From: Singulisphaera sp. GP187
GTDB lineage: Bacteria; Planctomycetota; Planctomycetia; Gemmatales; Gemmataceae
DNA: 53,405 nucleotides
Direction: 5' to 3'
Assembly: GCA_945905925.1 (NCBI GenBank)
Contig: CAMDQN010000030.1
Span: forward strand, 1-53,405
This document shows positions 19,119-35,469 of the stretch, one piece after another. The notes below the pieces were generated by a model, which worked only from the letters and a program-made list of their open reading frames with translations, did no database searches and had not been told where the DNA came from. Within the stretch, counting starts at the first letter, position 1, and every line of letters starts with the position of its first letter. The translations under genes and the position numbers were made by a program.

Positions 19119-19425
19119 GGGCAGCAGATCCCCTGTGAAGAAGTCTGTGACGCCGAAAGGCGTTGAGCCCGCGTTGATCGCGTCCGCGGCGTTCGTTGGC
19201 GCGGCACGCGGAGCCACTCGCGGTGTTTCGGGCCCGAGCTGAGGGCGGGCAACAAACCGGCCGGAAGTGAGATCGTGTTCGATTCCGACCGTCGCCACCC
19301 ACCCGATAGCTAAAGAAAAGACCGCGTGATCAGCGTCGCGAGTTGCCAGTCGAAGATCGTGTCCGTCCCACCAGCTCCCAGTTGGGAGCTGGTGGGACGG
19401 ACACGGATCTGGTGATGTCATCGGG
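19119..19425. other. Intergenic stretch between the pseudogene and the accessory element
   Basis: No gene is supported. A minus-strand frame spells VFSLAIGWVATVGIEHD and FVARPQ around 19230-19320, which may be a fragment of a lost protein, but I do not recognise it. The stretch ends with the strong hairpin listed separately. Confidence 0.4.
19358..19405. repeat. 23-bp perfect inverted repeat with 2-bp centre
   Basis: Positions 19358-19380 and 19383-19405 are exact reverse complements separated by GT. The arm contains CCCACCAGCTCCCA / TGGGAGCTGGTGGG. No T-run follows on either side, so it is not a typical intrinsic terminator. It lies exactly between the methyltransferase pseudogene and the first minus-strand gene of the accessory element, and could be a terminal or protein-binding site. 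Confidence 0.7.
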
Positions 19426-19611
19426 TCAGTGACACGCGAGCGACGGCCAGTTCCGGAAGGCCCGGAGCGCGGCCCGCACGGCCCGGCGCAGGCGGTTCAT
19501 GAAGTCCTCGCCGGTGAGCACCCGGTGAACCTCGTCGGCCTGGACCTCAGGCAGGTCGTTGGGGACGCGGATCGTCACGTGGATCTCGTCGATCACCACG
19601 GTCTTGGCCAC
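19426..19611 (-). CDS. Small hypothetical protein, 61 residues
   Basis: A GTG start (19611) with AGGAG upstream opens a short acidic-then-basic protein. It begins AKTVVIDEIHVTIRVPNDLP, a beta-strand-like start, and continues into an amphipathic helix with many arginines (FMNRLRRAVRAALRAFRNW). No family is recognised. It is the last gene of the minus-strand accessory block. Good ribosome-binding site and codon bias similar to its neighbours support it as real. Confidence 0.5.
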   Translation of the reverse strand: MAKTVVIDEIHVTIRVPNDLPEVQADEVHRVLTGEDFMNRLRRAVRAALRAFRNWPSLACH

Positions 19612-19644
19612 GGTGGCTCCTGTGTGAAAGTCTGTGGGGCGAAC

Positions 19645-19713
19645 CTACGGCATCTCGCGGGCGGCGTCGAACACCATCAGAGCGAAGAAGATGGCGGCGA
19701 TCAGGTACAGCAT
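19645..19713 (-). CDS. 22-residue putative membrane peptide
   Basis: The ATG at 19713 follows a GGAG site and encodes MLYLIAAIFFALMVFDAA then a short polar end. That is one transmembrane helix and little else. A longer reading frame (up to 19875) exists, but its N-terminal part looks like shadow sequence. It lies 33 bp upstream of the 61-residue gene. Such one-helix peptides occur in phages and toxin-antitoxin loci, but nothing here fixes the role. Confidence 0.35.
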   Translation of the reverse strand: MLYLIAAIFFALMVFDAAREMP

Positions 19714-19916
19714 GGCGGTCTCCGGGATGTGGGGGTTGAGTGGTACGGGAACGGCGGTCACGAAGTCGGAGTTGGCGGATGAGATTCGATCGGAGAGTGG
19801 CGTTCGATTCTGGGTTATCGCACGGGCTGACGCACGCGCCCGAAGGCGCGTACTTGACCGGCCGATTTCCTTCACCGAACGCGCTCATTCGACTGAACCC
19901 TTTCCGCCGCTTCCGG

Positions 19917-20525
19917 TCAGTTCACGAGGCCGAAGCGGCGGGCGGCGCGTTTCAACCAGCTCCCGGTCTGGACGGCGACGGTCGTGGTCGTGACACTCAC
20001 CGCGCTGACGGCCGCCGCGGCGGCGTGCGGCACGACCAGGCAGACGATGCCGACCACCAGCCCGACGCCGAGGCCCACGCACAGCATCCGGCGCAGCGGG
20101 AGTGCCTCGCCGGCGACCGTGCCGACTGCGGCCACCGCGTCGCTCGCGGCCCGGCACCGGGACGTCACCGCCTCCTTCGTCTTCGTGGCCGCACCGGTCA
20201 ACGCATCACGCGCGGCGGTGATCCGGGCCTTGAGCCTCGCCCACGGGCCGGGCTTCTTCGGCGCCGGCGCGGCCGCGGGCGGCGGGGCGACGACCGCCGG
20301 TGCGGGTTCGGGCCGCTCGGGGGCGAGCATGGCGCGGAGTTCGGGGTTGGTCATGATCTCGACGATGGCGTCCTTGACGGCGAGCCGGGTGCCCTCGCGG
20401 GCGGCGTCGGCCACCGCCTGGTTGAGCCCGTCGGCCAGGGCGTCGATGATCCCGTCGAGGCGGTCGAGTTGGTCGGCCAGTTGCTTGCGCTGCGGCTTGC
20501 CGTTCATCGTGTCGGTCGCGGACAT
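19917..20525 (-). CDS. Hypothetical protein with helical N-terminus and two membrane segments
   Basis: The start is placed at the ATG at 20525, giving 202 residues. Residues about 10-70 are predicted helical (QLADQLDRLDGIIDALADGL). A Pro/Ala-rich linker follows (ERPEPAPAVVAPPPAAAPAP), then basic helices. One or two hydrophobic segments lie near residues 150-185 (MLCVGLGVGLVVGIVCLVV, then AAAAAVSAVSVTTT). The design of coiled or helical head, flexible linker and membrane anchor suggests a membrane-tethered protein. No family is recognised. Confidence 0.6.
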   Translation of the reverse strand: MSATDTMNGKPQRKQLADQLDRLDGIIDALADGLNQAVADAAREGTRLAVKDAIVEIMTNPELRAMLAPERPEPAPAVVAPPPAAAPAPKKPGPWARLKARITAARDALTGAATKTKEAVTSRCRAASDAVAAVGTVAGEALPLRRMLCVGLGVGLVVGIVCLVVPHAAAAAVSAVSVTTTTVAVQTGSWLKRAARRFGLVN

Positions 20526-20697
20526 GGTCTGGTTCTCCGGTTCTTGGGTGGTGGTTCTGGTGAATACGTGTTGCGGGAATGTCACGACGCGAGCCCAGGC
20601 GCGCGACCTCCCCGGCTGCGTCCGGCCCCATGACGAGACCGGGCGGGTACGGGCGGAGACGCGTGCGTGAGGGTCGTGGTGACGGAAGTTGCTCGTG

Positions 20698-21264
20698 TCA
20701 GGTCGGATCGAGGCGTGCGAGTACGGACTCGGCGGTGAGTACATCGGTCGCGGCGGCAAGTACAGCGAGCGCGGCGCCGGCGACGGGGCCGCCGGCCAGA
20801 CCCAGCGCCGTCGCCAGCACGCCGAAGCCGATGGCGGCGGTGAGCGTGCCCTGGCGGGCCAGCCACCACCGCGCGACGTTCACCCCGACCGCGAGCGCCG
20901 CGGCCGTCGGAACCGCGGACGTTGGTGCCGGCTCGTCGCGGTCGGCGTGCCCATACCGCGCGGGTGTGCGGGCGCGAGCGTCGTAGTCGTCGGGGTCGGA
21001 CCACGGATCCTTGGGTTCGCCCCAGCGATCGCGCTCCTCGTACTCGTCCTCGCGCCACCCGCCCGGGCGCGGCGCCGGGTGGTGCGTCGAGGGCCGGGTC
21101 GTGTTGACGAACACGCGGTCGACCAGGGCGGCAACGAGTACGTCGCGGACTGCGCCCCCAACAGCGCCGGCCAGTTCGGTCGCCAGTGCCGCGCGGACCT
21201 TGATCTTCAGTTCGGCGAGCGAGCCGGCCAGCCGGTGGACCCGTTGTGTGACGAGCGCGGTCAT
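20698..21264 (-). CDS. Hypothetical membrane protein, coupled to the clamp-like gene
   Basis: The 188-residue protein starts at an ATG whose first bases overlap the stop of the clamp-like gene (ATGA at 21264-21261), which indicates translational coupling. The N-terminus is helical (VHRLAGSLAELKIKVRAALA). A charged, disordered middle is rich in Asp, Arg and Pro (DEYEERDRWGEPKDPWSDPD). The C-terminus has two hydrophobic segments (AALAVGVNVARWWLA, IGFGVLATALGLAGGPVAGA). No family is recognised. The coupling implies that it is made together with the clamp-like protein. Confidence 0.65.
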   Translation of the reverse strand: MTALVTQRVHRLAGSLAELKIKVRAALATELAGAVGGAVRDVLVAALVDRVFVNTTRPSTHHPAPRPGGWREDEYEERDRWGEPKDPWSDPDDYDARARTPARYGHADRDEPAPTSAVPTAAALAVGVNVARWWLARQGTLTAAIGFGVLATALGLAGGPVAGAALAVLAAATDVLTAESVLARLDPT

Positions 21265-22646
21265 CGCGGGCCTCCGGTGCCGAGGTTCAACTGCTTCAGG
21301 TTGGTGAGCACGTTCGCCAGCACCTTCTGCTCCTTCTTCGACGCCTTCAGCGCGGCGACCAGTCGGGTGGCCTTCGTCGCGGCGTCGGCCAGCGCCGCGC
21401 GCAACTCCTCGGCGGCGACGAGCGGGTCGGGCGCGTCGTTCGCGGGCGGGTCGTGCCGGCCGCCGGGCGCGGGGCCGTTCGGTTCGTGCGGTTTCACAGT
21501 CGTACTCCTTTTCGGGTTGGGGGCGGGGATTGAGACGATCGCGTCGGGACCGGGCGCGCGGGGTTCGGGTGCCACGGTCAGTTCCGGGTCGAGGAGCGCG
21601 GCGCGCACGGTGACGCCGTCGCCATCGCCGACCAGGGACTTGTCGGGACTGATGCGCAGCGCGGTGCAGCCGAGCGCGAGTACGCGGGCCAGCGCCCGCC
21701 GGTCGAGAGCCACTCGCGCTGCCGGCCCCGCGACGGACGACCGGGCCAGAAGAACCTCCTTCACGGTGCCGCTATCGTCGCGGGCGCGAACTGCGAGGAT
21801 ACCGTCGGCGTCGAGGGTGATTGGCCGGAGTTCGTGCCCCTGGCACGGTAGTCCTGGCAACTGTGGGAGCAGCGCGGCCGCGTCGCCGCGGTCGAGCGCC
21901 ACGGCCGTCGGCGCGTGCCGTGGAACTACGCCGGCCACGTCCGGAAACTTGCCGGCGGGCGCGACGGCGAGCCACACCGTCCAGTCGCCCGCGGACACGA
22001 CCAGATGGGAAGCCGTGCGACCGACGCGCACCTCGGTCTCGTCGCGCACTTCGGGCGAACCGAACAGTGGGACTGCGGGGACCAGTACGTCTCCGGTGAA
22101 CGGGAACGTGAACCCATCGAAGAGAACCGCGATTTTCCCGTCGGTGGCGACGACCCGGCCCTTCGCGCCGCAGACCTGGACCCGGCTGAGCGCGAACCGC
22201 CCGTCCTCGCGACTGGACGTGCGCCCCGCCTCGTGCAGCGCGACGAGTACGCGGGCTGCGACCGGCTTGGTCTCCGGTCGCGGGAGCGGGTCGTGTTGCT
22301 TGCCGGGCAGCACGAATGTCACCGGAACCGAGCCGGGGGCGCCGTCCCCGGCCCATCGCGCGACGCCGTCGAGGTTTTCGCCCGCGTCGAACTCGACCAA
22401 CTCGTCGGAGTTGGCCGCGACGGTCTCGATCGCGGTCATCGGCACAACCAGAATCTCGGTGAGGCCACGCGCGGGCGCGGCGCAGCCAAATTCGAGCGTT
22501 ACTTCGGGGAAGGTCGCGGTGAGCGTGATGCGGCCGTTCGCCTGCCGGATCACGACGCACGGGGCCGGGCCGCGCGGACGCCCGGAGATGCACTTCGCGC
22601 ACGCGGCGCGGAACCGCCGGGCAAGCCTGCGCGGGAACGCGATCAT
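21261..22646 (-). CDS. Divergent DNA sliding clamp (DnaN/beta-clamp-like) with C-terminal extension
   Basis: The 461-residue protein follows the three-domain pattern of the bacterial beta clamp. Domain 1 (about residues 5-110) has GRITLTATFPEVTLEFG and ILVVPMTAIETV. Domain 2 (about 150-250) has FALSRVQVCGAKGRVVATDGKIAVL, VLVPAVPLFG, then the telling KFPDVAGVVP. Domain 3 (about 255-370) has AVALDRGDAAALLPQL and VALDRRALARVLALG. A tail of about 80 residues adds a Pro/Gly linker and a helical segment (AEELRAALADAATKA, KKEQKVLANVLTNL). Ordinary DnaN is about 370 residues and has no such tail. Its place among phage-like genes suggests a mobile-element clamp. Identification is by pattern, not by search. 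Confidence 0.75.
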   Translation of the reverse strand: MIAFPRRLARRFRAACAKCISGRPRGPAPCVVIRQANGRITLTATFPEVTLEFGCAAPARGLTEILVVPMTAIETVAANSDELVEFDAGENLDGVARWAGDGAPGSVPVTFVLPGKQHDPLPRPETKPVAARVLVALHEAGRTSSREDGRFALSRVQVCGAKGRVVATDGKIAVLFDGFTFPFTGDVLVPAVPLFGSPEVRDETEVRVGRTASHLVVSAGDWTVWLAVAPAGKFPDVAGVVPRHAPTAVALDRGDAAALLPQLPGLPCQGHELRPITLDADGILAVRARDDSGTVKEVLLARSSVAGPAARVALDRRALARVLALGCTALRISPDKSLVGDGDGVTVRAALLDPELTVAPEPRAPGPDAIVSIPAPNPKRSTTVKPHEPNGPAPGGRHDPPANDAPDPLVAAEELRAALADAATKATRLVAALKASKKEQKVLANVLTNLKQLNLGTGGPR

Positions 22647-22681
22647 GGAATCTCCTCGGATCGGGTGGTGGAGCGTTAAGG

Positions 22682-22972
22682 TCAGTCGACCCGCCAGCCG
22701 GCGCGTGCGAGTTCCTCAGCGGTGTCGAACCTCTCGTGCGGCAGCGCCAGGAACGCGGACAGGTCGGACGGCAGGAAAAATAGGTTTGTGAGGTACACGG
22801 TCGTGCTGAAGCCGGTCAGCCCGGCGGCCCGCGCGTCGAACACGACGCCCAGTTCCTCGGCTCGGCCGGGACGCCGGCGCACCAAGGGTAGAAAGGGCCA
22901 CACCGGCCACAACGCGGGCGCAGAGAGGATCAGCACCGTCCGGTCCCGCACACACACACGGCAATTCGCCAT
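22682..22972 (-). CDS. Small hypothetical protein
   Basis: The 96-residue protein starts at the ATG at 22972 after GGGAG. It contains MANCRVCVRDRTVLI near the N-terminus, with a Cys-x2-Cys pair, then a Pro-rich stretch and AGLTGFSTTVYLTNLFFLPSDL. No family is recognised. It sits between the DUF6744-like gene and the clamp-like gene, 35 bp from the latter. Confidence 0.55.
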   Translation of the reverse strand: MANCRVCVRDRTVLILSAPALWPVWPFLPLVRRRPGRAEELGVVFDARAAGLTGFSTTVYLTNLFFLPSDLSAFLALPHERFDTAEELARAGWRVD

Positions 22973-23009
22973 CGCAGTCTCCCGGAATGGGACGAAAGGG
23001 AACGAAGAA

Positions 23010-23032
23010 GGCCGGTCCACAATGGACCGGCC
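23010..23032 (-). terminator. Intrinsic terminator-like hairpin after the DUF6744-like gene
   Basis: GGCCGGTCCA-CAA-TGGACCGGCC is a perfect 10-bp stem. On the minus strand it is followed by TTCTTCGTTCCC. It lies 24 bp after the stop at 23056 and 38 bp before the next start at 22972. The weak U-run suggests partial read-through or attenuation. Confidence 0.6.
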
Positions 23033-23055
23033 CGGAAACGACAGCGGGTTCGCGC

Positions 23056-23934
23056 TCACACGGCGGGTTCGGCGGACTCGCCCGCGATCTCGGCGACCTT
23101 CGCACGCAGCGCACGCTCGGCGTCGGCAACCGCCAGGTCCAGCCGCTCGCGCTCGCCCGAGAGATACTCGGCGTAGGTTTGCAACTTGAACTTGGTCGTG
23201 CGGATCTTCTCGGCGGCGCGCTGGAGCGTGTCGGCCCGCGTGTCGGTCCCGAACTGCGCCACCGCGGCGCGGTGCTCGGCGACCACAGCCGCGAGTCCGT
23301 CGGCCACCGCCTGGGTGACCGAACGGTCACCTTCCTCGGTGCCCGCCGGCACGGGGAACCGGAGCAGTCGCCCGCCCACGCGGTTGAGGAACTCCTGGAT
23401 CTTGTCGGTGAAGCCGGCGTGTTGTTGTGGGACGAAGTAGCACCCGCCACCCGGTCGAATGCCGAACAGGTCCGCCTGGCGCTCGAACAACTTCTGCACC
23501 ACGCGCGTCACGTCCGAACCCGTACGCACCGCGATGCAGCGGTCGAGTTCCTCTTGCGCCGCGGTGGCGAGGCCGGGCAGCGCGCAGGACACGCTCCCGG
23601 TTTGCTTGTCGAGCGTGAGTGTGGTCTCCAGTGTGTACTCGTAGCGGTCGTCCTCGCGGGTCTCCTGGGTGAACTGGAACTTGATGGTGGTCGTGTCCTC
23701 GGCGACGGGGCGGATGATGCGCTGGTCGCTGAGTTTCTTGCACGCGCGGGCGAACGCGTGCCGAGGGGCCAGTTCGCGCGCCACCCCCGGATCGAGGTCG
23801 GCCGCTTCGAGCGCGCGCACCAGGTCGGCGTGCGGAACGGCGAGGCCGGGGCACGCCCAGGCGATCACCTCGCCGAGTAAACGGGTACCGGCGCCCACGG
23901 GCACCGGTAACGGAACGGTCGCGGTCACGGGCAA
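23056..23934 (-). CDS. DUF6744-like protein of the AAA+/vWA module
   Basis: The 292-residue protein has an N-terminal region with PRHAFARACKKLSDQRIIRPV, a mixed strand region (TIKFQFTQETRE, YEYTLETTLTLDKQTG), CYFVPQQHAGFTDKIQEFLNRVGGRLLRFPVPAG, and a long C-terminal helical part with coiled-coil character (FKLQTYAEYLSGERERLDLAVADAERALRAKVAEI). This layout agrees with my recollection of DUF6744 proteins of actinobacterial phages and bacteria; that name should be treated as provisional. It is the third member of a cluster with a vWA protein and a MoxR/RavA-type ATPase, so it may be their substrate or adaptor. Confidence 0.6.
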   Translation of the reverse strand: MPVTATVPLPVPVGAGTRLLGEVIAWACPGLAVPHADLVRALEAADLDPGVARELAPRHAFARACKKLSDQRIIRPVAEDTTTIKFQFTQETREDDRYEYTLETTLTLDKQTGSVSCALPGLATAAQEELDRCIAVRTGSDVTRVVQKLFERQADLFGIRPGGGCYFVPQQHAGFTDKIQEFLNRVGGRLLRFPVPAGTEEGDRSVTQAVADGLAAVVAEHRAAVAQFGTDTRADTLQRAAEKIRTTKFKLQTYAEYLSGERERLDLAVADAERALRAKVAEIAGESAEPAV

Positions 23935-23958
23935 CCTCCTTCGCGAGTAGAAACGAAG

Positions 23959-23985
23959 CGACCCGGCAGACCATCCGCCGGGTCG
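23959..23985 (-). terminator. Intrinsic terminator-like hairpin after the vWA gene
   Basis: CGACCCGGC (23959-23967) pairs with GCCGGGTCG (23977-23985). On the minus strand CTTCGTTTCT follows. It lies 36 bp beyond the vWA stop and 25 bp before the start of the next gene (23934). Confidence 0.6.
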
Positions 23986-24021
23986 GGTCTGTGAACCGTG
24001 GCGGTAAACGCCGCGCGAACC

Positions 24022-25431
24022 TCAAAGCGACAGGACGCGGCCGACGGCATCGCCCGCGGGATCGAGGGCCCGAACGGAATGGACCTCGTCGCTGACGAGC
24101 GCCAGATCACCGGGCGGGTTGTCGATCACCAGCGCGACGACGCGCGCCTTCGTCGCGCGCTTCCAGACGAGGAACCGGTCGCGCAGGTCGGCCGGAATGC
24201 GACACCGCGCGTCGGTCACCATCACCACATCGGTCACTCCCGTCGGGGCGCCGATCTCCTTGTACATCCGGGGCAGTTCTTCGATGGGCAGATCCAAGTC
24301 CGACCCGCGCCCGATGAACGCCGCGAGCCAGTCGCACAGCGCCGACTCGTCCCACCGACCGGGTGGCAGCGCCAGGAGTCGCTCGCCGGATCCACCGCTG
24401 TACGCGACCAAGCCCGCCCACCGGCGCTGTTGCCGTGCCACCCACGCCAGCGCCAGCGCGAGGGCTTTCGCGGTGTGCGCCTTGGCGCCTTCCATCGACC
24501 CGCTCTGATCGGTCACAATCAGGACCGGCCCCTTCCCGACCGGCTCGACAGCGTGGTGCTCCCGACAGAGAGTTTGACGTTCAACGAGCCGGCGCAAGGT
24601 GTCGAGTTCCAACTCCGGCACCGCGAGGCGCACCAACTCCGAGGGCAAGAGCCGCCCGATGTCGCCGCCCGGCTCGACGCCGACCACGTCGTCCAAGCCG
24701 TGGGAGACCTTCTGCCGCTGCTTCGACTGCGCGACGCGGCGGAACCGGCCCGCGAGTTCGCTGATCCTTCGCAGCGCCGGGTCGTTGCGCACCCGTCTGA
24801 AAAGCTCGGCGATGGCCCGCGGGTCGTTGCTCCCCGGTTCGCCCGGCCCCAAACCCATCGCGGTTGCCGCGTCCTTCAGATCGCTCACCTCTTTGCTCGC
24901 CTCGACGACGGCCTTACCCACCGCACGCAGGGCCGTCATTTCGTGCTCCAGATCGCCTTCGCCACCGACCACCGCGGGTGCCGAACCGCCCGCCTTCGTC
25001 GCGTCGTCCTTCTTGAGTTTGGCGAACTGCTCCGCGAAGTGCCCCGCGGCAATGCTCGCGGCCGTGTCGTCGAGCCGGGTGTCGGAGTGCAGCGCCCGGT
25101 ACTCCGGTGTGTCGAGCATCTGCGCCAGGAACTCGCGCCGCCGCGGGTCGGCGCACGAGTCCATCAACTTCGGTTCCGGCTCGAATGCCGCCGCGAAAAA
25201 GTCCGCCGCGGCGAACTCGTCGGTGCCGGATTTCTGGAGTCGTTCACTTTCGGCAATCAGTTCCCGCCCGCGGCGCAGTCCCCACGCATCGACCTCCAGC
25301 GCGGTCGGACCGGCCGTCTCGACGCTCTCGAAATCGGCCGTGCCGATTATGGCGTGCGGTGCCGCGCGGTCCGGCGGCCGAGCCGGTTTCGCGCTCAGAT
25401 CGAGCAACTTCAACAACTCGTTCGGGTCCAT
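24022..25431 (-). CDS. vWA (von Willebrand factor A) protein, ViaA-like partner
   Basis: The start is placed at the ATG at 25431, just after GGAG, giving 469 residues. The N-terminal two thirds are helical and unrecognised apart from a segment near residue 220 (LFRRVRNDPALRRISELAGRFRRVAQSKQRQK) much like the region before the vWA domain in ViaA-type proteins. The vWA domain spans about residues 300-465. Its MIDAS is DQSGSM (308-313), with VTDARCRIP supplying the later acidic residue. ViaA in Escherichia coli works with the AAA+ protein RavA. Here the ATPase gene lies directly upstream (25521-26651), supporting a pair. The vWA protein probably recruits the client on which the ATPase acts. Confidence 0.85.
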   Translation of the reverse strand: MDPNELLKLLDLSAKPARPPDRAAPHAIIGTADFESVETAGPTALEVDAWGLRRGRELIAESERLQKSGTDEFAAADFFAAAFEPEPKLMDSCADPRRREFLAQMLDTPEYRALHSDTRLDDTAASIAAGHFAEQFAKLKKDDATKAGGSAPAVVGGEGDLEHEMTALRAVGKAVVEASKEVSDLKDAATAMGLGPGEPGSNDPRAIAELFRRVRNDPALRRISELAGRFRRVAQSKQRQKVSHGLDDVVGVEPGGDIGRLLPSELVRLAVPELELDTLRRLVERQTLCREHHAVEPVGKGPVLIVTDQSGSMEGAKAHTAKALALALAWVARQQRRWAGLVAYSGGSGERLLALPPGRWDESALCDWLAAFIGRGSDLDLPIEELPRMYKEIGAPTGVTDVVMVTDARCRIPADLRDRFLVWKRATKARVVALVIDNPPGDLALVSDEVHSVRALDPAGDAVGRVLSL

Positions 25432-25460
25432 GACGAACTCCGTTGTGAGTGGAAAACAAA

Positions 25461-25497
25461 ACCGGCGCAACGACCGAGTTGCGGTCGTTGCGCCGGT
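25461..25497 (-). terminator. Intrinsic terminator between the AAA+ and vWA genes
   Basis: A perfect 16-bp stem (25461-25476 with 25482-25497, loop AGTTG) is followed on the minus strand by TTTGTTTTCC. It lies 23 bp after the ATPase stop and 30 bp before the vWA start. It is the strongest hairpin of the accessory block and would separate the expression of two proteins expected to work together, so regulated read-through is plausible. Confidence 0.8.
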
Positions 25498-25520
25498 CAC
25501 GGTTGACAGCGGGTGCGTAC

Positions 25521-28318: not shown

Positions 28319-28339
28319 GATCGGCACGCTGCCGACCGG
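28319..28339. promoter_or_regulatory. Hairpin before the GP88-like gene
   Basis: TGCCGAC and GTCGGCA-type arms (GATCGGCA / TGCCGACC with one G-U pair) flank a 3-nt loop about 35 bp before the GP88-like start. There is no T-run. It repeats the junction-hairpin theme of this block. Confidence 0.35.
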
Positions 28340-28345
28340 GCGAAG

Positions 28346-28525
28346 TCACCCGTCTTCACCTTCGCGGAGCTGAGAGACAGGCAGTACGGGGTGCAACGGG
28401 TCCGGCTGTTGGGCGGGGCGCGGTGCGCGCTCAACGAGTTCCTCCACGACCGTTCGGACCAACCGGTCGAGGAACGCGTTGAGCGCGCGGCGGGCGCGCT
28501 CTTCCGGTCCGATCTCGTCGGACAT
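28346..28525 (-). CDS. Small hypothetical protein, 59 residues
   Basis: The ATG at 28525 opens an acidic, helical protein (SDEIGPEERARRALNAFLD, RLVRTVVEELVER) with a Pro/Gln-rich C-terminus. No family is recognised. It lies between the serine recombinase and the GP88-like gene, immediately after a terminator. Confidence 0.5.
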   Translation of the reverse strand: MSDEIGPEERARRALNAFLDRLVRTVVEELVERAPRPAQQPDPLHPVLPVSQLREGEDG

Positions 28526-28552
28526 TGGGGCCTCCGAATGGGAAAACGAAAA

Positions 28553-28579
28553 CGCCCCGCACAACCGTTGTGCGGGGCG
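28553..28579 (-). terminator. Intrinsic terminator after the serine recombinase gene
   Basis: CGCCCCGCACAAC (28553-28565) pairs perfectly with GTTGTGCGGGGCG (28567-28579). On the minus strand TTTTCGTTTTCCC follows. It lies 21 bp after the recombinase stop and 28 bp before the next start. Confidence 0.85.
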
Positions 28580-28600
28580 CCGGGTCACTGAAGACAACGA

Positions 28601-30547
28601 TCACGCGCTGACGATCGGCCAGGCAGGGTAGCCCGGCAGCGGCTTGAACTCGAACCGGGCGTGGCGGTGGCGCCGGACCTTGCTCTCTCCTTCGGGTGGG
28701 TTCGTGACGAGTTGGTACGGGTCGGTCATCCCGGCTTCCGTCATCATCCGGTGCAGTGCCATCGCCCGCTGCGCCGCGGTGACGGTCAGCCCGAGTTCGG
28801 CCGCGGCCTCGTACTCCGTCCGGCCCGCGGCCCGGAGTGCGACCACGCGCTCGCGATACGCAACGCGCTGCGGTGGGTTGAACAGATCGACGGTGACCTC
28901 GCGGGTAACCAGTTCGCTCACGGCCCCGGCGGCGCGGCCGAGGAGCGGCGCGAGCGTGATGGTCAGCTTGGCCCGGAGCACCACCGCGCCGCCGTCGAGC
29001 AACCGGTACGGAAACACCTCGATCTTTGGAACGAGTTGGTGCATGAGCCGCCCGAACTCGGGATCACAGAACGCCATCCGACCGACCGCGGCCCGCGCCT
29101 TCTCCTTGAGCACCTCGACCGGCGGGATGTCCGGCGCCTCGTCCGGTTGCGCGACGACCGCCGCGCGCTCGGCATCGAGTTTGGCCTTCGCTCCCTCGGT
29201 CTCGGTCAACTTCGTCCGGAGCGCCTCGCTAAACCCCATGCTCGCGACCGCACCGGTCACGTTCGCGAGTTCGCATTTGACCTGACGGAGTTGCGCGTCG
29301 AGCCGCTTGAGCGCCTCGGTCCGACCGGAGCGCAACCCGGCCGCCGTCGCTTCGGCCTTGGCGCGGAACGCGGCGTCGAAGTCGGGCAACTCCTCCGCTG
29401 CCGCGAGGATCGCTGCGGCGAACCGCCGACCGGCCTCGTCACCGTTGAACGTGGCTCCGTTCCAGCACGAGTAGTCGCGGGCGCCGGCGCACATCATGTG
29501 GTCGGTCTGCCCGTGCCCGCCCCAGTAGTACAGCCGCCCGCACACCCCGCAGGTGATGTGTTGCCCGGGCCAGACGGTGCGCTTCTTCGGCACGCCGGCG
29601 CGGGTGTCCGGCGTGCCCGCCTTGCGCCCGCGGGCGCACGCGCCGTGCCGGGCGGCCAGAGCGGCGATCAGTCGATCGTACCGGTCCGGTTCGATGAACT
29701 GCAAGTTCGGAGCGCGACGCAGCAGCAGCTGGTCCGCGGGCGCCTTGATCGAGGGACGCCGCCCGGTCTTGTTCACCCGACGGCTCATCCGCTCGTTCCG
29801 CCGCCGGTACCCCTTGAGGATGGGGTTGTGGGTCACCTGCATCACCATGCGGCCGTCCCACCGCACGTTGTCCGCCCACACCCCCGGCCGCACGTTCTCG
29901 GCGTTCAGGCGGTCGGCCACCTCGGCGTAACTGGCGCCGGCCTCCAGCAGGGAGAACCACTTTTCGTAGACCGGCTCCGCGTCCGGATCCTTGCGGACGT
30001 CCGCGTCGGACTTCGCGCCCGGCGGCTTGATGTAGCCGTACGGGAACGTCTGCACGACCCCGCCCTCCTCGAACCGGTTCCGGAGGGTGCGCCGGATCCG
30101 CTTCGAGGTGTCCTTGTTGCCGCTCTCGTGCTTGAACGACGCGAAGAGCGCGTTCAGCCGCCAGTCGTCGCGGGACGTGTCGAGGGAGTCGTTGATCGCG
30201 ATCAGGCGCGTGCACGCGTCCTCGCACAGTTCACAGAAGTCGATCGCGCGGTTGCGGCGGCAAATGCGGCCGAGGTCCTCGACGACGACGAGGTCGAACC
30301 GGCCGGATTCGACCTCGGCTTCGGCCTGCGCCAGTTCCGCGCGGTCGAGGAGTTCGCCGGACCCCTGACTCTTGACGTGGACGAACTGAACGGGTCCAGA
30401 GTACCGGTCTCGGACGTACCGCTCGCAGAGGGCGATCTGGTCGGCCAGGCTGCGGAGGTCCTGGTGGACCGTGCTGATCCGGGCGATGATCAGCACCATC
30501 AGCATGACGCCGTTGCGGGGCACCAGCATGGGATCGAAACTCGACAT
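28601..30547 (-). CDS. Large serine recombinase
   Basis: The 648-residue protein has an N-terminal resolvase domain with the catalytic serine in IARISTVHQD (Ser25), then DQIALCERYV and FDLVVVEDLGRICR. A recombinase domain follows at about residues 160-275 (RTLRNRFEEGGVVQTFPYGY, NPILKGYRRR). A zinc ribbon is at about 335-365 (CGVCGRLYYW ... CAGARDYSC), then a coiled-coil section (about 400-455). The C-terminus adds a region with a possible helix-turn-helix (AAELGLTVTAAQRAM). Length and order are those of site-specific integrases of phages and conjugative elements. No att site can be recognised around it, so it may act elsewhere or as an invertase. Confidence 0.93.
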   Translation of the reverse strand: MSSFDPMLVPRNGVMLMVLIIARISTVHQDLRSLADQIALCERYVRDRYSGPVQFVHVKSQGSGELLDRAELAQAEAEVESGRFDLVVVEDLGRICRRNRAIDFCELCEDACTRLIAINDSLDTSRDDWRLNALFASFKHESGNKDTSKRIRRTLRNRFEEGGVVQTFPYGYIKPPGAKSDADVRKDPDAEPVYEKWFSLLEAGASYAEVADRLNAENVRPGVWADNVRWDGRMVMQVTHNPILKGYRRRNERMSRRVNKTGRRPSIKAPADQLLLRRAPNLQFIEPDRYDRLIAALAARHGACARGRKAGTPDTRAGVPKKRTVWPGQHITCGVCGRLYYWGGHGQTDHMMCAGARDYSCWNGATFNGDEAGRRFAAAILAAAEELPDFDAAFRAKAEATAAGLRSGRTEALKRLDAQLRQVKCELANVTGAVASMGFSEALRTKLTETEGAKAKLDAERAAVVAQPDEAPDIPPVEVLKEKARAAVGRMAFCDPEFGRLMHQLVPKIEVFPYRLLDGGAVVLRAKLTITLAPLLGRAAGAVSELVTREVTVDLFNPPQRVAYRERVVALRAAGRTEYEAAAELGLTVTAAQRAMALHRMMTEAGMTDPYQLVTNPPEGESKVRRHRHARFEFKPLPGYPAWPIVSA

Positions 30548-30805
30548 CGGAATGTCTCCTGGGGTCAGTGACGATACTCGCGCGCGACACGACCGGGGCC
30601 AAACGCGGCCCCGCGGTACGCGCGGATCGGCCCGACACCGGTCCCGGTTGGTTCCCGTACGCGGTGGCGCCGGGCGGAGTTGCCTCCGACCGGTAAGCCG
30701 ATGACACGAACGTACCGCCGCCCTCTCACGCCGCGCTCACGCGGCGGGCAATGTGGTGTGAGACTTTCGGGCGGCCGGGATGAACCGAGACGTGGATGCG
30801 GGCGG
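30548..30805. other. Non-coding gap upstream of the serine recombinase
   Basis: No gene is seen. It holds two short GC-rich dyads (GGGGCC/GGCCCC near 30600 and CGCCGCG/CGCGGCG near 30735) without T-runs. The recombinase promoter should lie here. Confidence 0.5.
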
Positions 30806-32167
30806 TCAGGCGGGCTTCTCGATGACGACGATTTGTGCCGACTCCAGTTTCAGGCAATACGACCGGAGTTTGATCCCGGGGATGATGTGCTTCCACAGTT
30901 CGGCGGGGAGGAGTCGTTTGAGGCGCCCGAACAAGGTCGGCATTGCAGAGGGCGATGCGTCGTCCGGGAACAAATCCCGTTCCTCGACGGCGGCCCCGAG
31001 CCGGCCCTTGCGGGCGAGCGCGACGAGCATCTCCCACGGGCGATCGTTATTGGCCCAGTTGATCGCGAGACGTTGCTTCTCCCAGTACACGGCACGAGGC
31101 GATGTGGTGAGGACGAGGCCGCCCCGCGCCACCGCCTCCTCCAGTGCGGACTGTCCGGGCGGCTCGTTCGCGTACAGCCGTCTCAGGTCGCCGAGCGCGG
31201 CGGCGACGCTCTCCGTCAGTTCGGGGTTCCGGGTGTTGGTGAAACGGTGCCGTAGGGTGTGCCGTCCGACCTCAATTACGTTCTCGGGGAGGCCGAGCCA
31301 CCCAACGTCCGGCGCCGGGTGGAATGCGGCGTACACCTGTGCCAGAATGACGCACGAGCCGCGAACAGCGGTCTCATCCTCGGGACCACAAATCGTGTGG
31401 AGTTGACGAATCGTTTCTTGCAAGTGGTCCCTGTCGCCTGCCACCTCAGCAACGGGTTTCGGAGCGGCACGCCCGAGCGCCGGAACGCAAGCCAGTACGG
31501 CCCGGTCCGCTCTCTCAAGGATCTCGGCGAGAACCTCGACCCGGCGAAACAGGCAGCGGGAGATGAAGTCCCCGATCGCGTGGAGTTCGGGGTTCAGGGA
31601 CACGACGAACTCGCCCGCGGTCACGTGCTCGCTCGGCTCTTCACGGAGGAGCCAGGCGCCGCGCGGTTCCAGGTAGTCCGCGGGATCGACCAGGTCGCGC
31701 CAGAACGGCCGCGCGATCGCCTCGATCTGTGCAATCATGACGGGCAGTTGATCGACCTCGCGCACCGTGCGGCTGATCGGCCGGGCCCCTGACCCCGTAA
31801 CCACCAGTTCCTGGTCGACGAACCGGAGTGGCAGGAGGGACTCCCCGACCGCGGTGGCGACGCGGCGGGACCGTAGCGCCGCGCGGAGCAGGCGAGCGTG
31901 ACGGGTCAGCGCAGCCGCGGTCGCATCGACCTGCCGGCGTGCCGGCGTATTGGCGCCGGCGCGAAACTCATGCAGTGACCAGCAGGCCGCGTCCCGGAAC
32001 CTGGGCCGTGCGGTGTACTCGCCCACCAGCGGCGCCACATAGTCCTTCAGCCAGATGCCGAGTTCCCGAACAGGCATCTCAGCCCAGTTCTGGACCGGTT
32101 CCGGCACGATCTGCCGGTAACGCCGTTCGGCCAACTCGATCCGGTCCACGGTGATCTCCTTCGACAT
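30806..32167 (-). CDS. Hypothetical 453-residue protein, possible C-terminal winged helix
   Basis: No family is recognised. The N-terminal half is helical (LGIWLKDYVAPLVGEYTAR, AALTRHARLLRAALRSRRVA). The middle carries YLEPRGAWLLREE and EVLAEILERADRAVLACV. The last about 100 residues (DRPWEMLVALARKGRLGAAVEERDLF, MPTLFGRLKRLLPAELWKH) have the spacing of a winged-helix-type module. It is divergent from the tyrosine recombinase at 32279. It could be a regulator of the element, but this is inference from position and the C-terminal pattern. Confidence 0.6.
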   Translation of the reverse strand: MSKEITVDRIELAERRYRQIVPEPVQNWAEMPVRELGIWLKDYVAPLVGEYTARPRFRDAACWSLHEFRAGANTPARRQVDATAAALTRHARLLRAALRSRRVATAVGESLLPLRFVDQELVVTGSGARPISRTVREVDQLPVMIAQIEAIARPFWRDLVDPADYLEPRGAWLLREEPSEHVTAGEFVVSLNPELHAIGDFISRCLFRRVEVLAEILERADRAVLACVPALGRAAPKPVAEVAGDRDHLQETIRQLHTICGPEDETAVRGSCVILAQVYAAFHPAPDVGWLGLPENVIEVGRHTLRHRFTNTRNPELTESVAAALGDLRRLYANEPPGQSALEEAVARGGLVLTTSPRAVYWEKQRLAINWANNDRPWEMLVALARKGRLGAAVEERDLFPDDASPSAMPTLFGRLKRLLPAELWKHIIPGIKLRSYCLKLESAQIVVIEKPA

Positions 32168-32178
32168 CCCTGAAAACT

Positions 32179-32205
32179 CTCACACCGAGTCTCATGCCGT
32201 GTGAG
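32179..32205. promoter_or_regulatory. Candidate operator, CTCACAC-N13-GTGTGAG
   Basis: A perfect 7-bp inverted repeat with a 13-bp spacer lies in the 111-bp divergent region between the 453-residue protein gene and the tyrosine recombinase. A related GTGTGAGACT occurs at about 30758, and CTCA/TGAG is common to both. A repressor binding the two divergent starts is plausible. Confidence 0.4.
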
Positions 32206-32278
32206 CGCGGCGTGATGGGCCGATTGTAGTCTGGCGCCGTGGCACGGAACCCGACCGTGCGGCGACCGGACCCGAGTC

Positions 32279-33733
32279 ATGGATGCCCCAGAACCACCCG
32301 AACCAACAAACCCGGCGACCGCGCCGACGGGCTGGAGGGAGCGCTACGGCGACAAGCACCGGTGGCGCCGGTTCGTTGCCTTCCCCGTCGGTATCGCGCC
32401 GCCGAGCAAGGTCCGGGTCTATCAGCGCGCCGGTCACTTCTTGCTGAACTGGTGGGATCCGTGCGCGAAGAAGAACCTGTCCGAGCGCGTGGACGGCGAC
32501 CTCCTCACGGCCCTGACCCGCGCCCGCGCGATCGACGAGCGCGTTACCACGATGCGAACGGCCGGCGTGGGCAGTGACCGACGGATCGGTCACGCAGACC
32601 TGGTCGGGCGATACCTCGCCGACCTCGGGCAACGGGCCGATGCCGGAGAAGTCGATCCGAAAACCGTTCGGCGCTACGAGAGTGCCTTGAGGCACTACAC
32701 CGTCTTCGCCGGTCAACCCAATGTTGTCAAGAGATACCCGACCGCCGGAACGGTTGATCGCGAGTTCCGGCTCGAATTCGCTGCATTTCTGGCGACCAGG
32801 GAGGTGACTGGTAACGGGCGCCCCGGTGCCGCGCGACAGATGCGCAGCCCTCAGTTCGTTGCGGATGCCATTCGGGCGCTATTCGCCTGGGGATGCGATC
32901 CGGACCGCGGCGGGCTCCTGCCCGACGGGTTCCGCAACCCGTTCCTGCGGTCCGGCACGCGTGCGCCGGTGCTCAAGGGCGACCCGCTCGCCGCGCCCGA
33001 CGTCACGCTCCCGATGGCGATCGACCTGATCCGCGCCTGCGACGCGTTTCAACTCCGATTATTCGTCCCGTTGCTCGTCTTCGGGCTGCGGGCGGCCGAG
33101 CCGTGCGTACTGTTCGCTGACCACTTGCACGACGGCTGGCTATCGGTGCCGTGCATCCCCGAACTGGGGTTGTTGACCAAGGGCCGCCGGGACAAACGGT
33201 TCCCTCTCCTGGAGGAGTTGGAGCCGTTCTGGGACGTGTTCCGCGCCGGGAAGGAGAAAGGACTACTACTCGAACGTCGCGCGGTCGCCGAGGGGCGGGA
33301 GAAAACGCCGCTGCGCATGACGCCACTTCTAGAATTGATCCGCGAGTATCGGTCGCGGTGCGAACAGACGAACGCGAAGTCGGCCGCCGAGCGGGTCAGC
33401 ATCCGAGACGGCGTGCTCCGGGACGCGGGCGGGTTGGACTACGACCACATCCAGAGCGAGTTCTCGAAACTGACGAACGGGTTGGGGTGGCCGACGCACG
33501 CGACCCTGAAGGATCTGCGCCACCTGTTCGCCACGACGCTCAACAACGCGGGCGTGCCGGACGGGTACGTGCGCTACTTGATGGGCCACGCGCCTGGGAA
33601 GGCCGCGGTTGTCGCGTACACGCACCTCGACCAACTCCGCCGCCACTATTCCACGGCCATCAAGCAGGAGTGGGCGCCTCTGCTCGCCGCCATTAACGAA
33701 CGAGTCGCCGCGCTGCGCGACGACGTTCGATGA
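32279..33733 (+). CDS. Tyrosine recombinase / phage-type integrase
   Basis: The 484-residue protein begins at ATG 32279. Residues about 20-100 resemble an arm-binding domain (YGDKHRWRRFVAF, LLNWWDPCAKKNLSER). Residues about 105-200 form the SAM-like core-binding domain (DLVGRYLADLGQ, VRRYESALRHY). The catalytic domain has the first arginine in VFGLRAAEP, the second box LKDLRHLFATTL (Lys in place of the usual first His), the histidine of LMGH and the tyrosine of VAYTHLD. All needed residues except that His are present. It is on the strand opposite to the rest of the block and only 158 bp from the end of the second integrase. Confidence 0.9.
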   Translation: MDAPEPPEPTNPATAPTGWRERYGDKHRWRRFVAFPVGIAPPSKVRVYQRAGHFLLNWWDPCAKKNLSERVDGDLLTALTRARAIDERVTTMRTAGVGSDRRIGHADLVGRYLADLGQRADAGEVDPKTVRRYESALRHYTVFAGQPNVVKRYPTAGTVDREFRLEFAAFLATREVTGNGRPGAARQMRSPQFVADAIRALFAWGCDPDRGGLLPDGFRNPFLRSGTRAPVLKGDPLAAPDVTLPMAIDLIRACDAFQLRLFVPLLVFGLRAAEPCVLFADHLHDGWLSVPCIPELGLLTKGRRDKRFPLLEELEPFWDVFRAGKEKGLLLERRAVAEGREKTPLRMTPLLELIREYRSRCEQTNAKSAAERVSIRDGVLRDAGGLDYDHIQSEFSKLTNGLGWPTHATLKDLRHLFATTLNNAGVPDGYVRYLMGHAPGKAAVVAYTHLDQLRRHYSTAIKQEWAPLLAAINERVAALRDDVR

Positions 33734-33848
33734 CTCGCATCGGCTTTCACCTCGGGGTCCGACATCTCTCGCGCTTTCTCGCCAACATCACGTCGTGAAC
33801 CGCACCGGCAATTCCCATCCAGAGCCATCAGCGAGGAGGGACAACGGA

Positions 33849-33895
33849 TAAGGTGCCCCTCAAGTAATAGTGACACGTTTCGATCATATATTTAG
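33849..33895. repeat. Right copy of a diverged 47-bp direct repeat
   Basis: Partner of 26740-26786, in the same orientation and without gaps. It covers the stop codon of the second tyrosine integrase. The two copies enclose about 7.1 kb that includes the exonuclease, GP88-like, serine recombinase, unknown protein and first tyrosine recombinase genes. Confidence 0.45.
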
Positions 33896-35253
33896 GCGAT
33901 CAATATAGTGTTGCGCGAGACCCACTCGCCGGCGACCGTAACCGCCGAACGATCCGCGAATGCGGCGAGGAGTTGCTCGCGCACGGTCTCGGGTCGGGTG
34001 TGCGTGTACACCGCGGTCATCCCGAGCCCGTGCCCCGGCGACCGCGAACCCGCCGCCGCGTGCCCCATGAGCAGGTTGCGAACCAGCGGGTCCACCCGCC
34101 CTTCTTGTAGCGCGGTCGCGAACTGGTGGCGAAGCACCTTCGGAGCCGTCTGGCCGACCAGCCCGGCGTTCCGCGCCGCCCGGATGAACTCGATCCGGAC
34201 CCGGTTCTCGTCCACCGCCCCGACGTCCCGCCAGAGCCGCCCGGCCAGTCGCACCCGTGCGGCCCGGTCGGGATCGGCTGGGATCGCATCCTGGTTGGTA
34301 AGACGGCGCACCAGTTCCCGCTCCAGGGCCGCGGTTGAGGACGCATCGAACCCCAAGTTGTCGTCGGTCCACCTGCGCCCTCGGAAGACGGGTCCGCAGG
34401 TGCGGCCCGCGAGGTGAACCCGGAGCACGTCCACCAGTGCGGGCACCAGCGGGATATCGCGCTGGTTCCGCGTCTTCACCTGCCAGCCGAGCCGGGGCTT
34501 GTTCCGCACCCGGATCAGCCCGGCCGTCAGATCCAGATCGTCGGGTAACAGCAGGTGGCACAACTCGCCCGGCCGAAGCCCGGTCAGAAGCAAGGTCAAG
34601 AACACCGGGAACTGCCAGTCGTCGCACGTCCCGAGGAACGCGCGTTCCTGGTCCGCGGTGAGGAGTTCGATCACGCGCGCGGTCTCGACGGGGATGCGGT
34701 CGATCTCGACCGCGGCGAACGGGTTCTCGACGTACGGCGGCAGGTGCCGGCGCCGGGCCGCGTGGTTGAACAGCGCCCGGCAGCACTCCAGCACGTACCG
34801 CACCCCCTTGTCCAGCAGCGCGCGTTTGGGTGTATTCGCGTGGCCGTTCGGGGACACACGAATGGTCCGCAAGTACCCGACGAACGCTGCGGCGTGCGTG
34901 GCCGAGAACTGCCCGGCGTGCCGCACCGGATGTTCGTTCAGAAACCGGAGCAGATGGTCCGTGGCCGTGCGATAGCGGGCGATCGACTGGACCGAAGACC
35001 GCCGCACCTGCTCGTGGTGCTCGAGCCAACGGGTCCGAAGGACGGGGATGCTGATCGGCTCGAACGAGAGCGCGGATGGCGCGCCGGTTTCGAGTTGGGA
35101 GTTGACTTGTGCGGCGAGTTGTCGGGCGGCGTCCCGCTCGGCCCCGGCGCGTGGCCGGCGGCGCGTGCCGTTTTCGAAGTAACACAGGTACCAGACGCGA
35201 CCGCGGAGATAGCCGGTCACCTTGCCGACGCGGAACGAGTTGGACTTGGACAT
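33892..35253 (-). CDS. Tyrosine integrase adjacent to tRNA-Ser
   Basis: I place the start at the ATG at 35253, preceded by GAGG; the open frame runs on into the tRNA gene and is not coding there. The 453-residue protein has a basic N-terminus (NSFRVGKVTGYLRGRVWYLCYFENGTRRR), a core-binding domain at about residues 65-175, and the catalytic residues in LLTGLRPGELCHL, KVLRHQFATAL (Lys in the first-His place), LLMGHAAAG and VYTHTRPE. It lies 129 bp downstream of the tRNA-Ser 3' end, the usual place of the integrase of an element inserted in a tRNA gene. It is therefore the best candidate to have integrated the 19-35 kb region. Confidence 0.93.
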   Translation of the reverse strand: MSKSNSFRVGKVTGYLRGRVWYLCYFENGTRRRPRAGAERDAARQLAAQVNSQLETGAPSALSFEPISIPVLRTRWLEHHEQVRRSSVQSIARYRTATDHLLRFLNEHPVRHAGQFSATHAAAFVGYLRTIRVSPNGHANTPKRALLDKGVRYVLECCRALFNHAARRRHLPPYVENPFAAVEIDRIPVETARVIELLTADQERAFLGTCDDWQFPVFLTLLLTGLRPGELCHLLLPDDLDLTAGLIRVRNKPRLGWQVKTRNQRDIPLVPALVDVLRVHLAGRTCGPVFRGRRWTDDNLGFDASSTAALERELVRRLTNQDAIPADPDRAARVRLAGRLWRDVGAVDENRVRIEFIRAARNAGLVGQTAPKVLRHQFATALQEGRVDPLVRNLLMGHAAAGSRSPGHGLGMTAVYTHTRPETVREQLLAAFADRSAVTVAGEWVSRNTILIA

Positions 35254-35274
35254 GCCATCCTCAGAGAACCCTCC

Positions 35275-35305
35275 TGCCACAAAGTGCCACAAAAACTGCC
35301 ACAAA
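35275..35305. repeat. Three direct repeats TGCCACAAA in the integrase promoter
   Basis: Copies start at 35275, 35285 and 35297, spaced about one helical turn. A partial fourth (TGCCACA) is at 35360 inside the terminator. They lie 22-52 bp upstream of the integrase ATG and next to the tRNA. Short repeated sites beside an integrase are typical arm-type integrase sites or autoregulatory operators. Confidence 0.55.
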
Positions 35306-35338
35306 CGGGAACGTCTGAGGGGTCCCAGAAAGGCAAAA

Positions 35339-35372
35339 GGCCCGTGCGGCAAGCATTTTTGCCACACGGGCC
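35339..35372 (-). terminator. Intrinsic terminator after tRNA-Ser
   Basis: GGCCCGTG / CACGGGCC with an inner GGCA/TGCC pair and one mismatch form a stem, followed on the minus strand by TTTTGCCTTTCT. It begins 11 bp beyond the tRNA 3' end, so it ends the tRNA transcript and insulates the integrase. Confidence 0.8.
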
Positions 35373-35382
35373 GACAAGACAG

Positions 35383-35469
35383 CGGAGAGGGAGGGATTCG
35401 AACCCTCGGTACGGTTTCCCGTACACAGCATTTCCAGTGCTGCACAATCGACCACTCTGCCACCTCTCC
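35383..35469 (-). tRNA. tRNA-Ser (anticodon GGA)
   Basis: Read on the minus strand, GGAGAGG (5') pairs with CCTCTCC (3') as the acceptor stem with a G discriminator. The anticodon loop is CTGGAAA within GCACTGGAAATGC, giving GGA (serine, UCC/UCU). A long variable arm (GTACGGG-AAA-CCGTAC) and a T-arm GGGTTCGAATCCC follow, as expected for serine tRNAs. There is no encoded CCA. A tyrosine integrase lies downstream of its 3' end, marking an integration target. Confidence 0.95.

Follow-up and report, generated by a model that had tools for sequence, protein, structure and literature searches.

A chromosomally dispersed MoxR-vWA-DUF6744 cassette with a divergent sliding clamp in a tRNA-Ser(GGA) island of Singulisphaera sp. 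GP187

Pairs of a MoxR-type AAA+ ATPase and a vWA protein are described, in the pertinent passages of Kaur et al. 2020 (PMC7159879), as cores of ternary conflict systems. The locus analysed here lies in a 53,405-nt stretch of Singulisphaera sp. GP187 (Gemmataceae; contig CAMDQN010000030.1, positions 1 to 53,405; hereafter the window), in which a 7.5-kb operon, termed the clamp cassette, forms the core of an island (nt 19299-35381) abutting the 3' end of a tRNA-Ser(GGA) gene. As in the ternary systems, so far as those passages describe them, a MoxR AAA+ gene and a vWA gene share one operon with a fast-evolving extra component, planctomycetes are among the carriers, and the cassette ATPase is bpMoxR in Pfam. 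Unlike the systems of those passages, the cassette has DUF6744 and a sliding clamp as its third component. Pfam matches of the cassette proteins scanned (E ≤ 0.1) included none of the four third components named there, VMAP, iSTAND, FtsH or a beta-propeller on the vWA protein, bpMoxR being the ATPase itself, and the term 'sliding clamp' occurs nowhere in PMC7159879. No description of the clamp cassette was found in the literature, most subscription journals lying outside the search, so that absence is not proven; nor was any mention of DUF6744 found in the same body of literature. Papers that mention both MoxR and 'sliding clamp' include PMC7824862, the relevant passages of which do not describe the cassette.

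Architecture of the clamp cassette

The cassette is a single operon transcribed in the order MoxR, vWA, DUF6744, orf125, clamp, orf188, TM (a predicted transmembrane protein) and orf62. Counts in the following list refer to the 33 copies examined, the window included, all of which carry the clamp by selection; HMM denotes hidden Markov model.

19299-26787, minus strand: clamp cassette, the complete operon; repeated unit of 7.5 kb
19309-19320, plus strand: GCTAAAGAAAAG at the cassette 3' end, with an inverted counterpart of similar sequence at the 5' end
19358-19405, no strand: 23-bp inverted repeat without mismatches, beyond the last gene of the cassette (repeat search), probably a transcription terminator
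19426-19611, minus strand: orf62, small conserved protein whose family is represented in 23 of 33 copies, in some on the upstream side of MoxR
19917-20585, minus strand: TM-family predicted membrane protein; family in 26 of 33 copies
20698-21264, minus strand: orf188, predicted membrane protein; family in 22 of 33 copies, with a transmembrane segment in 18 of 22 members
21261-22646, minus strand: divergent beta sliding clamp, 461 aa (HMM, profile, fold model)
22682-22951, minus strand: orf125, between the clamp and DUF6744 genes; small protein, its family conserved in 23 of 33 copies
23056-23928, minus strand: DUF6744 protein, with QADLF at residues 151-155 (HMM, gene order)
24022-25431, minus strand: vWA protein, phrog_24053-like (HMM)
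25521-26651, minus strand: MoxR-type AAA+ ATPase (bpMoxR E 2e-48; phrog_19600 E 7e-67)
26652-26787, minus strand: cassette 5' end, beginning GCTAAATAAC (8/10 to the end motif); conserved sequence upstream of MoxR that probably includes the promoter region

The clamp product matches no Pfam family at E ≤ 0.1, and it matches the phage family phrog_947, a processivity factor (E 6e-6). When a profile of 17 cassette clamps was compared with the PDB, all ten matches at E ≤ 1 were DnaN (best 3e-10), and the profile of the folding alignment gave one PDB match at 1e-5 or better, likewise DnaN. In the AlphaFold model most of residues 1-355 are placed with confidence; these residues form the three repeated clamp domains and are followed by a low-confidence linker and two C-terminal helices (residues 408-452). 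The best 50 Foldseek matches listed are all beta clamps (best E 1.5e-21), and VIA-align superimposed the model on the Clostridioides difficile clamp with Z 26.1 and 3.0 Å over 333 residues. The protein thus shares with DnaN the three-domain fold and alignable TDG and PD..P stretches; unlike DnaN it shows just 9-17% identity to the structural matches listed, falls below Pfam detection, and carries the extra linker and C-terminal helices. The host has its own dnaN at another place (C2, 398-aa frame), and since the genome holds no further PF02767 match, the clamp of the cassette is a second one that has diverged beyond the reach of Pfam. The cassette therefore encodes a true, divergent beta sliding clamp beside the host dnaN. 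The clamp of Escherichia coli has the C-terminal residues MPMRL; residues of this type were not seen in the clamp alignment. The clamp alone gave no matches among phage, plasmid or IMG/VR sequences.

Among the four large cassette proteins it is the clamp that evolves fastest. Its omega exceeded that of DUF6744 in 78 of 82 comparisons, of vWA in 57 of 58 and of MoxR in 40 of 42, by a simple dN/dS count at dS between 0.05 and 1 in which the pairs share branches and are not independent. Omega remained below 1 in all comparisons listed, and within the clamp the fastest change falls in domain 1 and the linker. The hydropathy profile predicts a transmembrane segment in 26 of 27 members of the TM family.

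The left homology border at nt 19299 was obtained from G000:C32 and G025:C27, both of which have one common left flank. The earlier note had started the element at nt 19358; that position proved to be the perfect inverted repeat, 59 nt inside the homology border. The end motif on the left side is present at 10/10 positions in the window and in copies G000b, G025a and G006a, and at 9/10 in five others. A transposon with target duplication was considered, as the GCTAAAGAAA ends are inverted. The ends fall in terminator-like and promoter-like sequence, however, the motif was not found in many copies, and no target-site duplication was seen at the cassette ends, so a transposon is not claimed. Just left of the cassette (nt 18486-19138) there is what appears by eye to be a DNA methyltransferase remnant (TSPPYF), split between frames.

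Dispersed copies and relatives of the triad

In all, 76 clamp matches, fragments included, are spread over 28 of 95 Gemmataceae genomes, which represent 14 of 39 genera, and a single genome holds as many as 12; several of the matches in G006 contain stops and represent broken copies. A DUF6744 profile search across the phylum found the protein in 5 of 392 genomes, the Singulisphaera genome among them, and a scan of a species-level contig collection gave 25 loci, all with planctomycete titles. Among the 33 copies, DUF6744 is present in 26, MoxR in 24 and vWA in 23, and the genes that a listed copy possesses always follow the order MoxR, vWA, DUF6744, orf125, clamp, orf188, TM. Copies G051a-c, G053a and G094a retain the clamp, the triad of MoxR, vWA and DUF6744 being replaced by three proteins (c20-c22), one of which resembles a vWA-type protein and one an AAA protein by inspection only. 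The position of the GP88-family gene, described below, varies: it lies between clamp and orf125 in G012b, G014a and G026a, and upstream of MoxR in the window, G009a, G016a, G016b and G019a.

Homology between copies within one genome ends sharply. Copies G023b and G023d share 7.4 kb at 92-99% identity, G071a-c about 6 kb at 86-87%, and G051a and G051b about 6 kb at 85-90%. In the first pair the vWA genes are identical while the synonymous divergence of the other genes is 0.12-0.18, and copy G014a is a mosaic, its clamp being closest to G023a (0.78) and its DUF6744, vWA and MoxR closest to G023c (0.94, 0.89 and 0.88). Both cases indicate recombination between copies. G023 has copies on both sides of a split in the DUF6744 tree, as has G009, which speaks for separate acquisitions; the split itself is weak (75/79), and the groups holding the G023 and G009 copies have supports of 95/96 and 99/99.

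The earlier note had treated the 16 kb between its left boundary and the tRNA gene as a single element with cargo. That view has to be revised, since the clamp cassette is an independent repeated unit that occurs elsewhere without the integrases found here. We consider it quite probable that the locus combines a tRNA-Ser integrase, a sharply bounded and recombining 7.5-kb cassette, and a true but divergent second clamp.

Relatives of the triad occur outside the Gemmataceae. The Pfam match to DUF6744 is slight (E 1e-5, 24.9 bits against a cut-off of 27 bits), its identity being backed by its place in the gene order and by relatives on plasmids that carry the DUF6744 annotation, and the vWA protein is weak in Pfam (E 0.02) and clear in phrog_24053 (E 1e-22). 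DUF6744 was found on 15 plasmid records and on Moorella phage MTATph1. The cassette HMMs detected MoxR, vWA and DUF6744 together in all seven plasmid loci read, in the phage locus and in the planctomycete genome G288; the planctomycetes G150, G170 and G235 have DUF6744 with no MoxR or vWA match in the stretches fetched. The plasmid hosts are Alicyclobacillus, Brevibacillus, Nocardia, Streptomyces and Rubrobacter. On two Alicyclobacillus plasmids a dnaN gene lies directly upstream of the triad, one of them also carrying a CHC2 zinc finger gene, and no dnaN was present within the stretch read at the other five plasmid loci. More generally, plasmid dnaN matches occur in 229 records, some of them chromosome-sized.

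The cassette thus resembles the plasmid and phage triads in its three core proteins (eight loci read) and, on the two Alicyclobacillus plasmids, in the upstream dnaN. It differs from them in being a set of dispersed chromosomal copies with its own clamp, TM, orf188 and orf125 families. The HMMs of the last three had no match in the plasmid and phage triad loci, and the cassette-clamp HMM did not reach the plasmid DnaN proteins of the triad loci at 1e-3, so that acquisition of a clamp by the triad may have happened more than once, or the clamp may have diverged strongly. The triad gives the impression of an old module carried by large mobile replicons; in the Gemmataceae it would have acquired a divergent clamp together with membrane proteins and become a dispersed cassette.

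The sequence QADLF in DUF6744 resembles a clamp-binding peptide, and PDB entry 4k3o is a clamp with AcQADLF. Every one of the 25 Gemmataceae DUF6744 sequences has ADLF, and the 12 from elsewhere lack it. As proof of contact with the clamp the motif was rejected and stays a lead: its first residue varies (Q, H or E), QxxLF strings are not rare, and both Alicyclobacillus DUF6744 proteins with a neighbouring dnaN lack it. The DUF6744 fold model is weak (pLDDT 66.7) and gave no Foldseek match at E ≤ 0.001. The tyrosine recombinase int2 (see below) carries QLRLF, which by reading lies within the integrase core.

The island at tRNA-Ser(GGA)

Between the cassette and the tRNA gene the window contains the following features.

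26779-27561, minus strand: DEDDh exonuclease with ExoX-like C-terminus (HMM); in 6 of 33 copies
27586-28284, minus strand: GP88-family protein (E 1.3e-35; alternative start 28434); family in 8 of 33 copies
28601-30547, minus strand: large serine recombinase (Resolvase and Recombinase, HMM)
30806-32167, minus strand: orf453
32279-33733, plus strand: int2, tyrosine recombinase (Phage_integrase, HMM), convergent with int1
33892-35253, minus strand: int1, tyrosine integrase (Phage_integrase, HMM), its start 128 nt away from the 3' end of the tRNA
35382-35469, minus strand: tRNA-Ser(GGA), the integration site (two programs); junction of element and tRNA near 35381/35382

The island is composite, consisting of the clamp cassette as core (19299-26787) and a recombinase-bearing part. 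Its G+C content is 0.68-0.69, compared with 0.635 in each flank. For orf453 no match was found in the other 32 cassette copies at E ≤ 1e-10, and orf453 and the window's serine recombinase appear particular to this island or to few copies; serine recombinases near other copies are 22-38% identical to that of the window. The exonuclease copies are those of the window, G009a, G016a, G016b, G087c and G006b, of which four also have GP88, and a serine recombinase or integrase lies nearby. The exonuclease also matches PDC-S48, a candidate defence model. Much of the earlier note's description stands: its gene list was confirmed by HMM searches of the proteins and by the two tRNA programs, and int2 is the sole named gene opposing the strand on which it had placed almost all genes. 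Its statement that capsid, terminase and relaxase genes are lacking agrees with Pfam searches of 20 island open reading frames, which gave no capsid, portal, terminase, relaxase or type IV secretion family, and its view of the element as something other than an ordinary phage, with its own clamp, was likewise upheld.

Integration at the tRNA gene, which the note had also proposed, is supported by the distribution of int1. The integrase lies at the 3' end of tRNA-Ser(GGA) in the window and of tRNA-Ser(CGA) in G009 (copy G009a) and G017, where it is truncated by the contig end, adjoins the tRNA gene and shares 91.5% identity over 212 residues. Similarity between the window and G009a spans int1 through the tRNA (nt 33871-35470) and is lost at the tRNA 5' end (nt 35470); int1 and int2 occur together in G009a also, and partially in G051a. 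Since the same integrase is found at two tRNA-Ser isoacceptor genes with a common 3' end, site-specific integration of the element at tRNA-Ser is a sound reading. On the right-hand side, five genomes (G009-G013) have tRNA-Ser(GGA) with the same neighbours as the window, a peptidase and a small duplicated gene. DNA similarity continues past the tRNA in G013 only, where the alignment (nt 35381-35766) ends at the tRNA 3' end and the contig extends 121 bases further; the alignments of G009 and G010 at this border comprise the tRNA alone.

The left side is less clear. A copy of the tRNA 3' end at the left boundary, expected by the earlier note as a mark of integration, was not found: an exact-repeat search of the window gave no repeat of at least 12 bases. 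A pattern search with the 23-base core, which would miss a shorter core, gave 15 places with up to 3 mismatches in G000, G009 and G017; the 11 that were checked are tRNA-Ser genes, and a fuzzy search likewise gave no place outside such genes so far as identified. At the same tolerance five places lie in the Singulisphaera genome itself, four of them tRNA-Ser genes and the fifth on C92. None of 15 tRNA-Ser(GGA) loci of the genus matches any island protein, the 3' side available ranging from 121 bases (G013) to 20 kb, with three others at 2-6 kb. The conserved synteny without empty sites that would have contradicted integration was accordingly not seen. The window's left flank is joined to tRNA-Ser(GGA) in none of the 15, and a complete empty site could not be reconstructed. 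With neither a distal attachment (att) copy nor a complete empty site, integration is demonstrated on the tRNA side only and an excisable element is unproven. The island resembles tRNA-targeted integrative elements in having a tyrosine integrase at a tRNA 3' end, also at another tRNA-Ser isoacceptor, and differs from them in that no distal att repeat was found, no transfer genes were matched, and it is a composite with an independently dispersed cassette. We regard it as one carrier of the cassette, placed at tRNA-Ser by int1.

Two further features of the window lie outside the island. About 200 bases of a small gene beside the tRNA (nt ~35572-35771) have many dispersed relatives (~74-83% identity) in all six genomes searched, which had 11 to 50 matches each to the query, most of those listed falling on this segment. 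Far to the left, at nt 5146-6384, is an open frame which we take from its start to resemble an IS110-type transposase.

Neighbouring genes and possible functions

Copies differ in what lies 5' of the cassette. Type I-C Cas genes are present beside copies G012a and G019a, as judged by gene order, with two members each for the Cas3, Cas5 and Cas7 models. Other copies adjoin Druantia, BREX-like or DISARM genes: DruE in G023a, PglX in G023b and DrmB with DrmMI in G087b were all matched at very low E-values. G087a and G087d have a weaker, partial match, a helicase of MkoA/DpdJ-like type; the matches in G012b and G014a, likewise weaker and partial, are proteins of LmuB/TmtA-like or LmuB/mad3-like type, mad3 being found in the control also. 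No convincing defence match was obtained for one G071a protein (the control gave the same two families), for one G051b protein (E 2e-10 to a type III enzyme) or for four further proteins of G023a, G014a and G012b, and a large G016b protein tested for defence is a recombinase. In G016b (G016:C84, nt 10384-14355, minus strand) this type of gene is represented by a 1323-aa frame that fuses a tyrosine recombinase (residues 219-393) to a large serine recombinase (624-912); in G006b the tyrosine and serine recombinases are separate genes with a 4-base overlap.

At 1e-10, PADLOC gave 130 families from 85 5'-neighbour proteins compared with 11 from 85 control proteins, a tally of families rather than proteins in which one strong gene matches many models and to which the exonuclease of the cassette group itself contributes 3 members of PDC-S48. 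The neighbour set comprised 85 of 132 proteins (36,829 residues) from 23 of 32 fetched copies, the window's own copy standing outside it. The set excludes G026a, G009b, G000b and G012b, for which no MoxR was called (G012b was examined individually), and also G006a, G025a, G019b, G008a and G006b, which have too little upstream DNA. The control comprised 85 of 176 proteins (33,945 residues) from 20 stretches at hand-picked positions in the same genomes. Pfam assigned four of the neighbour proteins to Recombinase and three to Phage_integrase; no recombinase was among the best 25 of 151 control families. Copy G026a, in which no MoxR or vWA was detected, has genes for an HK97-type portal, protease, capsid and connector 5' of the cassette, which places cassette and prophage genes together in that copy.

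The earlier note had inferred a DNA-transaction or defence module, and there are observations in favour of each. From these data we propose that the cassette may be a mobile anti-phage or anti-element conflict module built around MoxR-vWA as a chaperone switch. Sensing of invader DNA replication would fall to DUF6744 and the fast-evolving clamp, the latter serving as decoy or fork sensor; the MoxR-vWA pair would act as an ATP-driven switch, and the small membrane proteins at the end of the operon as effectors. Cassettes would travel with recombinases, as in the window, or accumulate beside other defence systems. This proposal is favoured because MoxR-vWA pairs are described conflict cores, the clamp evolves fastest, membrane proteins recur, and several copies adjoin defence genes. 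The role of the clamp as sensor or decoy in a mobile conflict module is nevertheless offered tentatively, as a possibility with somewhat less than an even chance. The explanation as a whole, a composite tRNA-Ser(GGA) island carrying a mobile MoxR-vWA-type conflict module with a clamp, comes close to an even chance without reaching it. Several observations weigh against a conflict function. An effector activity is not known, none of the four cassette proteins scanned (the small ones being outside the scan) has a specific PADLOC model, two G023c neighbours gave no convincing defence match, and the pairs behind the high omega of the clamp share branches. The control also had defence-type matches (mad3, mad8 and a DRT), the orientation of neighbours varies, some copies lie beside recombinases or phage genes, and adjacency to defence genes may reflect islands that collect everything. 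Outside the Gemmataceae the triad is on plasmids and a phage, not visibly beside defence and partly among replication-type genes, with a terminase gene adjoining it in G288. Some vWA matches are annotated ViaA, and passages of PMC7159879 list non-conflict roles of MoxR-vWA pairs (RavA-ViaA, virus-tail assembly), and for a MoxR-vWA pair of a jumbo phage a passage of PMC7824862 suggests a part in virion assembly. Both such roles and the occurrence of the triad on plasmids and a phage favour other explanations.

The strongest of these, though we hold it to be somewhat unlikely, is a replication or processivity module, in which the clamp would hold a polymerase of host or element on the excised circle, the DEDDh exonuclease would proofread, MoxR-vWA would remodel the complex and DUF6744 would link it to the clamp. 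Such a module would suit the plasmid and phage triads, the dnaN and CHC2 genes of the Alicyclobacillus plasmids and the plasmid dnaN records generally, and it is consistent with the kinship of the exonuclease to the phage polymerase exonuclease families phrog_192 and phrog_14632, the marginal matches (E 0.09) of MoxR to clamp-loader families, and the Prim-Pol gene near G016b. Yet apart from the exonuclease and the marginal ATPase matches no replicative polymerase, primase or Rep family was matched in the island; the exonuclease was found in only six copies, recombinases are not general among the neighbours, membrane proteins are kept in the larger group of copies, and it is the clamp that evolves fastest. 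An early-gene remnant of a prophage or satellite lineage, persisting without a selected function of its own, would account for the origin of the cassette better than for its persistence and appears improbable. MTATph1 with its DUF6744, ATPase and vWA genes, the terminase of G288, the structural genes of G026a and the broken copies in G006 all point in that direction, but omega below 1, the preserved gene order and a clamp spread over 14 genera do not. Least likely, and by our estimate quite improbable, is a mobility module whose clamp would direct a recombinase or the cassette itself to replicating DNA. Clamps guide some transposition, and the copies are dispersed with sharp ends, inverted 10-base ends in some and serine recombinases beside several; against this, Pfam found no transposase family among the cassette proteins, the end motif is not found in all copies, no target duplication was seen, and the nearby serine recombinases are only distantly related to that of the window.

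Returning to the conflict module, the cassette could represent a fifth kind of MoxR-vWA conflict system, with a decoy-clamp sensor, membrane effectors and a dispersed mobile cassette around which Gemmataceae assemble defence islands, a suggestion that we make as a rather doubtful one. If it were true, conflicts between bacteria and the DNA that invades them would have the replication clamp as a target or a tool, and a function for DUF6744 would come within reach. The Gemmataceae would offer a multi-copy system in which to test this, the 76 clamp matches, fragments included, having already been located in 28 of their genomes.

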